Source: Clostridia bacterium
GTDB taxonomy: Bacteria; Bacillota; Clostridia; Monoglobales; Monoglobaceae
NCBI GenBank assembly: GCA_017622215.1
Contig: JAGARO010000002.1
Location: 1 to 64,000, forward strand
Length of the DNA stretch: 64,000 nt
Direction of reading: 5' to 3'
A program made the position numbers and the translations under genes. The notes under the pieces were generated by a model, which had not been told where the DNA came from, ran no database searches, and saw only the letters and a program-made list of their open reading frames with translations. Numbering within the stretch: position 1 is the first letter of the stretch; each line of letters starts with the position of its first letter. Shown piece by piece: positions 20,149 through 21,969 of the stretch.

Positions 20149-20801
20149 GAGAAATAAAAGTTGCACCATCAATGCTTTCAGCAGATATTCTGCATCTTGA
20201 AGAAGATATTAAAAAGGTTGAGGCGGCAGGTGCAGACTACCTGCATTTAGACATTATGGACGGACACTTCGTTCCGAATTTAAGCTTTTCTGCTGACATT
20301 GTAAAGGCTATAAGACCAATTTCAAATATGGTTTTTGACGTACATCTTATGATTTCTGACCCTGAATTTTACCTTGAATACTTTGTAAAGGCCGGGGCAG
20401 ACATTGTAACATTCCACTATGAAGCCGTAGAAAATCCTATAGCATTGGCTGAAAAAATTCACAGCTACGGCATTAAAGCAGGCATTTCAATCAAGCCTAA
20501 AACTCCTGCCTCCGTTCTTTCAGACATTATCGAAAACTTCGATTTAATCCTTGTTATGACTGTTGAACCAGGCTTTGGCGGACAGTCCTACATAATGGAA
20601 ATGAACGAAAAAATAGCTGAAGTTCGGGAAATGATTGACAAAACAGGAAAAGATATTGACCTTCAGGTTGATGGCGGTGTTTCTCCTAAAAACGCTCATC
20701 TTCCTGTATCTCACGGTGCAAATGTTTTAGTTGCAGGCTCGGCTGTGTTTAAGTCTGAGGACTACAAAACTACAATTTCTCAAATAAGGAGCGCAGAATA
20801 A
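20145..20801 (+). CDS. rpe: Ribulose-phosphate 3-epimerase
   Basis: A 218-residue TIM-barrel epimerase with LHLDIMDGHFVPN, the metal/catalytic region DVHLMI, and MTVEPGFGGQ and VDGGV near the C-terminus. It interconverts ribulose-5-P and xylulose-5-P in the pentose phosphate pathway. The ATG at 20145 overlaps the rsgA stop (ATGA) with GGGAG eight bases before it. The in-frame ATG at 20130 has no ribosome site. Confidence 0.95.
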   Translation: MREIKVAPSMLSADILHLEEDIKKVEAAGADYLHLDIMDGHFVPNLSFSADIVKAIRPISNMVFDVHLMISDPEFYLEYFVKAGADIVTFHYEAVENPIALAEKIHSYGIKAGISIKPKTPASVLSDIIENFDLILVMTVEPGFGGQSYIMEMNEKIAEVREMIDKTGKDIDLQVDGGVSPKNAHLPVSHGANVLVAGSAVFKSEDYKTTISQIRSAE

Positions 20802-21427
20802 TGCGTGTTTTTATAATCGGCTCTGCTCCGCAAAAGGATTTGGGCTATCTTAAGAAAATTGATTTTTCTTCTTCTATGATTATTGCTGCAGACGGCGGTT
20901 TAAGAGTGTGCGAGGCTCTGGGACTCACGCCTGATGCGTGGATTGGGGACAACGATTCATTAAAAAGAGAAGAAATCAATGCAAAAGATACTGTTTTTTT
21001 AGACACACATAAGGATAAAACTGACGTTAACGTATGTGTTGACTATGCCACCCAAAAAGGGGCAACCCACATAACACTCCTCTGTGTTACAGGGGGCAGA
21101 CTTGACCACGAATACGGAAATTTTGCTATGCTTAAATACATTTCACAGCATAACATTTACGGTGAAATTATTGATGAGCAAAATACTGTTTTATACACAG
21201 ATAAAGCTATTACTATTCCGAAAAATGACCGTGAATTTCTTTCAATTTTTCCTTATGGAAATCAGGTTAAAGGGCTTACTGTTACAGGAACGGAGTATGA
21301 AGCTTTTCAGGTTGACATCAACAACTATTCAACGCTTACTGTTTCAAACAGAATTATAAACGAGGCACATATTTCCTTTGATTCGGGCGAGCTTTTAATA
21401 TTTTTATCAGGTGACAAGAGTGCATAA
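20801..21427 (+). CDS. thiN: Thiamine pyrophosphokinase
   Basis: A 208-residue protein with the thiamine pyrophosphokinase catalytic domain (IIAADGGLRVC, the GDNDS motif, and THITLLCVTGGRLDHEYGN) and a C-terminal beta-rich binding domain. It converts thiamine to TPP. The start overlaps the rpe stop by one base. Its final codons (Lys-Ser-Ala-stop) form the 5' strand of the long stem described at 21,416-21,685. Confidence 0.92.
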   Translation: MRVFIIGSAPQKDLGYLKKIDFSSSMIIAADGGLRVCEALGLTPDAWIGDNDSLKREEINAKDTVFLDTHKDKTDVNVCVDYATQKGATHITLLCVTGGRLDHEYGNFAMLKYISQHNIYGEIIDEQNTVLYTDKAITIPKNDREFLSIFPYGNQVKGLTVTGTEYEAFQVDINNYSTLTVSNRIINEAHISFDSGELLIFLSGDKSA

Positions 21428-21685
21428 AGGCATCTTTCTTTAGGAAGAAGTCAATTTGGATTTCAATATTATAAAAGCCTTACAACACGATGTGTAGTAA
21501 GGCTTATTTTATTATCCAAACAATTTATTGCTTGAAACACAGCATTTCGGATGGCGGACAAGGTAAAAAAAGAAGTTAATCCTTTGTGGATTAACGAGGC
21601 TTTTTCCGCAGTACGACGCCGAAATGCATAGTTTCAAGTTGGCTTATCCCTAAAGACAGATGCCTTTCCTTATGCACTCTTTTTT
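21416..21685 (+). ncRNA. large structured RNA element ending in a terminator-like U-tract
   Basis: This segment folds into a three-way junction. The closing stem pairs AAGAGTGCATAA (21416-21427) with 21670-21681, then AGGCATCT (21428-21435) with 21658-21665, then CTTTAGG (21438-21444) with 21649-21655. Arm A pairs AAGCCTTAC (21475-21483) with 21497-21505, has an inner ACAC/GTGT pair, and may be extended by TTTGGAT/ATCCAAA (21455-21461 with 21514-21520). Arm B pairs CTTGAAAC (21531-21538) with 21631-21638, GCATTTCGG (21542-21550) with 21619-21627 and GCGGA (21554-21558) with 21605-21609, and is capped by GTTAATCC/GGATTAAC (21575-21582 with 21588-21595). Six T follow the closing stem, so the whole may terminate the long operon. 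I recognise no known RNA family. A MITE-like element is the main alternative. Confidence 0.6.
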
Positions 21686-21718
21686 CATTTCTGAATATAT
21701 TATTTCAGGGGTGATTTT

Positions 21719-21883
21719 ATGAGATGCAGACCTAATTGTAGTAGAAATAAGCCTTTGGGCTGGTTTTTTGTTGCCCTGGGACTTGGGATACTCCTGGCTC
21801 ACGTCATCCCATACTACTTACTTCTCGCATTCTTCGGAATTGCTTTGATTTGTGTGGGTATAAACTTTATAACAAGAAAATAG
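21719..21883 (+). CDS. small membrane protein next to spoVM
   Basis: A 54-residue protein not assigned to any family. It has a short basic N-terminus with two Cys (MRCRPNCSRNK), then two hydrophobic segments (about 13-30 and 32-51) separated by the polar HVIPYY turn, and a basic end (TRK). AGGGGTGA lies six bases before the ATG. It follows the structured element and precedes spoVM by 14 bases, so it may be co-transcribed with that sporulation gene. A role in sporulation is only inferred from position. Confidence 0.7.
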   Translation: MRCRPNCSRNKPLGWFFVALGLGILLAHVIPYYLLLAFFGIALICVGINFITRK

Positions 21884-21897
21884 AAAGGATGATTTCT

Positions 21898-21969
21898 TTG
21901 CAAATTGTTGTAGTTAAAGCTCCAAAATACCTAAGAGGACTCCTTAAAAGGTTATTTAGAATTAAATAA
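21898..21969 (+). CDS. spoVM: Stage V sporulation protein SpoVM
   Basis: A 23-residue amphipathic peptide read from a TTG start, which is preceded by AAAGGA at an 8-base spacing. The nearby in-frame ATG at 21889 overlaps that ribosome site and is less likely. The pattern QIVVVKAPKYLRGLLKRLF fits SpoVM: hydrophobic first residues, then KxPKxLxG, then an amphipathic basic helix. Bacillus SpoVM (26 residues) binds the convex forespore membrane and anchors SpoIVA for coat and cortex assembly. Position gives independent support: in Bacillus the order is prpC-prkC-rsgA-rpe-thiN-spoVM-rpmB, and the same genes surround it here, though rpmB is inverted. Confidence 0.85.
   Translation: MQIVVVKAPKYLRGLLKRLFRIK

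Follow-up and report, generated by a model that had tools for sequence, protein, structure and literature searches.

A probable MITE-like mobile element of conserved fold within the thiN terminator loop of a Clostridia genome

Directly downstream of thiN in a member of the Clostridia (family Monoglobaceae), a long stem closes two structured arms and is followed by a run of six T. This locus raises the question of whether so large a structure is a new RNA, an unusual terminator, a regulator of the genes that follow or a mobile element. The window analysed here comprises the first 64,000 nucleotides of contig JAGARO010000002.1. The reading that we prefer, with a probability of roughly 0.8, is that positions 21429–21664 are a mobile DNA element of Clostridia, non-autonomous and MITE-like, inserted in the loop of the thiN terminator.

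The thiN locus and the element

The identity of thiN (thiamine diphosphokinase) is supported by the equivalog model TIGR01378 (137.7 bits), and both PF04263 and PF04265 also match. The region 21400–21700 folds at −117.3 kcal/mol, compared with −59.5 ± 4.7 kcal/mol for shuffled sequences (z −12.4; none of 100 shuffles as low), into a long closing stem with two arms, and the large organised structure described in an earlier note on this DNA is therefore real. The reverse strand also folds strongly (z −11.9), as is expected of a quasi-palindrome. As the note had read it, the closing helix starts in the final codons of thiN, at 21418, and ends just before the T-run at 21680–21685. It consists of two layers, the outer (21418–21427 with 21670–21679) being the stem of the host terminator and the inner belonging to the element (Table 1). 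A GC-containing outer stem followed by six T at the 3' end of the gene is the hallmark of an intrinsic terminator. Covariance models of Rfam 15, applied at gathering and E-value thresholds, gave no match at the locus, in agreement with the earlier view that no common RNA class is present; near the other copies, one unrelated 6S match lies beside a distant copy.

Table 1. Features of the thiN locus and of the inserted element (positions in the window)
Feature	Position	Strand	Basis or remarks
thiN, gene with the element-hosting terminator	20801..21427	+	TIGR01378, PF04263, PF04265
Host terminator stem, 5' strand GAGTGCATAA	21418..21427	+	Overlaps final codons and stop of thiN; same-stem short terminator intact at the orthologous site in G001
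Mobile element, 236 bp, GGCATC...GATGCC	21429..21664	+	Multicopy alignment with flanks; ends set by comparing copies and empty sites
Left terminal inverted repeat, 5' strand of closing helix	21429..21453	+	Consensus helix 1: 23 pairs, 10 with two-sided changes
Arm 1, 7-bp stem and 13-bp hairpin with terminator-like A and T runs	21455..21520	+	Consensus fold; two-sided changes in 9 of 20 pairs
Arm 2, bearing the family-wide core	21530..21639	+	Consensus fold
Conserved 94-nt core, AAAAACGNAG-[7-8 bp stem, TTTGT/TGTAT loop]-CGAGGCTTTTT	21540..21633	+	Covariance model 78.5 bits, E 8.9e-18; 36-sequence alignment
Right terminal inverted repeat, 3' strand of closing helix	21640..21664	+	Consensus fold
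Host terminator stem, 3' strand TTATGCACTC (21670-21679), then T6 (21680-21685)	21670..21685	+	Sequence; footprint site in G001

The placement between thiN and spoVM stands in part. The structure does follow thiN, but the next gene is a 54-aa ORF (21719–21883) and not spoVM directly. This ORF, a predicted membrane protein, has no match among Pfam or NCBIfam models and lies between the element and a 26-aa SpoVM-like ORF (21892–21969). The latter also has no match among Pfam or NCBIfam models, and its name thus reflects resemblance only.

A search of the window's own genome (G000; 14 contigs, 1.18 Mb) with 301 bases returned 13 matches, corresponding to about eight substantial copies in unlinked places. 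Besides the window copy, seven matches span at least 115 bases, six of them more than 200 bases at 82–86% identity. These copies are roughly 240 bp long, occur on several contigs and show 82–87% identity. Among 60 genomes searched (the window's own and relatives) the element was found in 10, with 17 matches in G001, a member of the same genus, six in G015 and single matches elsewhere; weak matches reach another family of the order. The element is thus not unique. The earlier note had looked to near-identical copies with target-site duplications as the mark of a MITE. Copies are indeed present, although at about 85% identity they are not near-identical, and target-site duplications are clear only in other subfamilies.

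Alignment of the copies with their flanks delimits an element of 226–242 bp (GGCRTC...GATGCC) with sharp ends and unrelated flanking sequence. Its ends are terminal inverted repeats, joined by a closing helix of 23 pairs. The element contains only short, spurious and overlapping ORFs of at most 50 aa, and hence no transposase gene. Two partial copies lack arm 2. Another partial loss is seen at a pair of sites that are probably orthologous, as judged from their similar right flanks (L034 and L037), where G001 has the whole element and G000 the right end alone.

Insertion in terminators, empty sites and loss

In most copies the left and right flanks together make up a hairpin, with a T-run behind it. 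Pairing of at least 8 bp, including three or more G–C pairs, is found between the flanks of 14 of 24 copies, compared with 18 of 552 (3.3%) mismatched flank pairs. Orthologous sites were located by searching with concatenated flanks, and four clean pairs of empty and filled sites were obtained (L040/L216, L039/L218, L047/L219 and L027/L233). The empty sites are plain short terminators (GACGGG-ATAA-CCCGTC, GGTGGTC-AATTAG-GACCACC, GAGAGGC-TTTC-GCCTCTC and CCTCCT-TTTC-AGGAGG), and each filled counterpart keeps the stem, with the element in the place of the loop. In these four pairs the loop is altered and not cleanly duplicated; across the window's subfamily, an exact 4-bp duplication is present in only 4 of 24 copies. 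Six copies (L026, L029, L031, L035, L037 and L043) have no flanking stem. In three of them (L029, L035 and L043) one side of the stem is missing from the filled site while a terminator is visible at the empty site, suggesting either that the stem was lost later or that insertion differed.

The element is absent from the window's locus in G001, which reads GAGTGCATAAAGACAGATGCCTTTATGCACTC. In the middle of this thiN terminator, 16 bases (AAAGACAGATGCCTTT) correspond to the right end of the element in the window; they are joined at TAAAG, a sequence present at both element ends. Based on this footprint and the repeated TAAAG, G001 would most simply have carried the element at thiN and lost it through deletion between the two direct repeats.

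Most copies lie immediately downstream of stop codons and between convergent genes, and those between neighbours of the same direction occur in both orientations. Within this bacterial family, the lineage to which the window copy belongs inserts into the loops of terminators, which probably go on working. Since the ends of the element pair with each other, the hairpin is only lengthened and still consists of a stem and a U-run, and termination of the thiN operon has probably been kept despite the insertion. Terminator hairpins may be targeted by insertion, not merely tolerated as sites.

The conserved fold and its class-wide core

The consensus fold of 21 full copies (RNAalifold) contains 80 pairs and has the same three-way junction as the window copy. 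The junction proposed in the earlier note is therefore upheld, while its arm 1 of 9+4 pairs was an underestimate; the consensus has 7+13 pairs in arm 1 and 9+15+6+7 in arm 2. The closing helix combines the 23 pairs inside the element with about 10 pairs of the flanking terminator. Across the alignment, 97.5% of cells pair. Two-sided changes, which the note had proposed as a check, occur in 29 of the 80 pairs, compared with 14.1 ± 1.9 in shuffles and 4–10 in slid versions, where related copies exceed shuffles easily and the slid controls preserve relatedness. The covariation score of the 21 copies is 0.251, against 0.122 in the control. The 94-nt core shows two-sided changes in 9 of 17 pairs and a score of 0.374, against 0.095 when shuffled.

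An IUPAC pattern of the tip of arm 2 was found in 81 stretches among 84,980 species genomes, all from uncultured Clostridia or Oscillospiraceae and mostly of gut or termite origin by isolate name; the same pattern has no match in viral contigs. A covariance model built from 36 diverse cores matches 26 genomes out of 51 in the order and, at E ≤ 1e-5, 57 out of 391 in the class Clostridia; single genomes hold as many as 10 copies or more. The ends vary around this shared core. Termite MAGs have GGTTCGGGTGTCAAAAGT, and GGYAAYACCGCACAA is shared by Subdoligranulum variabile (records OY725839 and OY725879, labelled as plasmids) and some herbivore-gut MAGs; G185 and G080 have TAGCCGTCGGAGAG and TAGCCTGACGCTTCC, respectively.

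Target duplications are exact at 6 bp in 4 of 14 copies of the termite-MAG subfamily (control 1.6%) and at 4 bp in 7 of 14 copies of the subfamily that includes S. variabile (control 16.5%). Insertion as DNA with duplicated targets is thus shown in these two subfamilies. Together with unlinked copies, terminal inverted repeats and empty sites, such duplications support the MITE-like element that was among the options of the earlier note. Stem-forming flanks were found in none of the 28 copies of the two subfamilies, and nesting in terminators therefore belongs to the subfamily of the window.

A 172-bp relative occurs in S. variabile and in six scaffolds labelled 'Bacteriophage sp.', and phage, plasmid and viral collections contain no match to the window copy. 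Six such relatives lie very densely in the single 100.7-kb record OY725839 (S. variabile; L293 and L294), with exact 4-bp duplications at four of the six. Short pairs of GGYAAYACC ends of about 50–120 bp are found as well, a length that cannot accommodate the 172-bp element in full.

Several variants of the architecture were seen. In one genus (g74), cores are arranged in tandem as two or three units about 160–200 bp apart (L248, 1501–1913; L253, 1300–1594). In several families of Clostridia the core lies inside a larger element of 300–350 bp (L258, L259, L260, L266 and L278–L282), where a second conserved domain, CTTGTCGTC..GGCGTCAGCC..TCCGCACC, is found upstream of the core; the reverse complement of this domain is also a conserved peptide-like frame. 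Four copies from termite MAGs (L106, L121, L134 and L076) have an additional GC-rich hairpin within the arm, CCCCACGCGACAGGTCGCGCGGGG or a similar sequence, as a repeat inside a repeat.

Rival readings, mobilisation and known elements

Conservation of this kind could also be expected of a functional non-coding RNA family, with a core acting in trans or in cis and kept for the host, for example through protein binding or stabilisation of 3' ends. Compensatory changes are found throughout the element and the core, the core is conserved over many GTDB families while the ends change, and folding of the consensus gives a lower energy for the + strand (−94 kcal/mol) than for the other (−63 kcal/mol). 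However, sister genomes differ in the sites of their copies, copies get lost, and insertions occur in both orientations relative to genes. Among the pairs common to the folds of both strands, the excess of G·U over A·C columns is not significant (12 versus 10, p 0.83), and covariation could be mimicked in a palindrome by mutation that itself restores pairing. An RNA family of this type is possible but, on balance, unlikely. The new structured RNA suggested in the earlier note is half right. It agrees with the lack of an Rfam family and with the compensatory changes; it is not a single new RNA, and the conserved fold may be that of RNA or of DNA.

The conserved core and changing ends are a counterpoint to the MITE reading as well, being unlike what is predicted for a simple deletion-derived MITE. 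Conservation of the core may be due to a need of the element or its host for the folded form. A still more tentative proposal is that the element works through its covarying 94-nt core, either a structured RNA or a folded single strand recognised for mobilisation. Such a role would account for the retention of the core across the class while the terminal repeats change freely, and for the insertion of the window's lineage into hairpin loops; the mobile element would then be defined by its internal fold and not by its ends.

The remaining alternatives fare worse. Spread through an RNA intermediate by reverse transcription, in the manner of group IIC introns at terminators, would fit the terminator targeting, and four copies in the CAJOFW MAG (L064, L114, L123 and L132) seem to be 5'-truncated at one base. 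However, the cut lies about 96 nt from the end of the element and other contigs of that MAG start there, so that the truncation was rejected as a sign of reverse transcription and is likely a k-mer boundary of the assembly. Inverted-repeat ends and the target duplications of related subfamilies fit DNA transposition, and Rfam has no group II intron match at the locus. Group IIC introns prefer intrinsic terminators as targets, insert beside the stem, and have a domain V and often a reverse transcriptase; no domain V, reverse transcriptase or insertion beside the stem was seen here, and we regard this route as very unlikely. A cis-regulator of spoVM or of the next downstream gene, as proposed in the earlier note, has only its position in its favour. 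It can scarcely be correct given that the sister genome has lost the element here, that copies follow many unrelated genes, and that most lie between convergent genes with nothing downstream to regulate. Finally, an ordinary intrinsic terminator of the thiN operon, overgrown in place and immobile, would account for the stem with T6 at its end and for thiN finishing inside the stem. This idea is refuted by the element copies and the empty sites: the inner 236 bp are about 85% identical to copies behind unrelated genes, whose outer stems are unrelated.

Under the preferred reading of a MITE-like DNA element, a sequence with inverted-repeat ends and two structured arms (236 bp here) would land in the loop of the thiN terminator, where pairing of its own ends would produce a longer hairpin that retains the U-run and so preserves termination. 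A transposase encoded elsewhere would act on it in trans, and conservation of the core would reflect a need for its folded form in the element or its host.

The IS1182 transposase model and the DDE_Tnp_1 (IS4/IS5), DUF4096 and ISL3 models have no match in G000 or G001, which are incomplete MAGs or drafts; such absence carries little weight since draft assemblies lose elements of this type. The DDE_Tnp_1, DUF4096 and ISL3 models also have no match in G425, despite its 94 end matches. A search for an autonomous relative by pairing of terminal repeats gave no transposon-sized pair in the termite MAGs G061 and G062, and among the matches listed for G425–G428 there are small element-sized pairs only. 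When viral contigs were scanned for the 15-base element end, mostly lone matches resulted, likely due to chance. An IS1182-family element in G028 was considered as a partner and rejected, its ends being unrelated to those of the present element. This element (L267, G028:C64) lies between two copies of a 27-bp palindrome, GACAGTATGGCATATGGCCGTACTGTC, as if a hairpin target had been duplicated.

The bcr1-type repeats of the Bacillus cereus group are mobile chromosomal repeats with a conserved fold. Mobility and a conserved fold are the likeness to the present family; in sequence and host they are not known to be related to it. The nearest kind of element is found in the small structured MITE-like repeats RUP, BOX and SPRITE of Streptococcus pneumoniae and in the Correia elements, which like the present family are usually shorter than 300 bp, multicopy and intergenic, with folded transcripts whose ends pair, terminal inverted repeats, short target-site duplications and no gene of their own. 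RUP, BOX and SPRITE are found in the pneumococcus and a few related streptococci (PMC3049150), whereas here a 94-nt core extends across a class under differing terminal repeats and target duplications. SPRITE is terminator-like but is not reported as sitting inside a terminator, and the nesting in terminator loops seen in the window's subfamily was not found described for RUP, BOX or SPRITE (PMC3049150). The nearest published mechanism is that of IS1272 (IS1182 family), which replaces target inverted repeats of unrelated sequence and produces no target-site duplication (PMC5678879). Stem-loops of unrelated sequence serve as targets in both, and the four clean pairs of sites here likewise show no clean duplication of the loop. 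However, IS1272 exchanges the target inverted repeat in full, and in the filled sites of the present element the stem is retained and the loop alone changes; IS1272 also encodes its own transposase, and the window's genome has no IS1182 match. A literature search, mainly of freely accessible papers, found no description of such a family.

As a rule, small structured repeats are bound to a genus and have conserved ends, whereas in this family a fold is kept across a class while the ends change. It would offer a clean system in which to study the selection that acts on the inside of non-autonomous elements. The family is carried at high density by gut Clostridia, among them the culturable S. variabile, and can therefore be put to the test. 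Such insertions also account for a class of oversized terminators, which annotation or surveys of RNA motifs could take for new RNAs. The location of one lineage inside terminators bears on how a genome of 1.2 Mb tolerates such elements.
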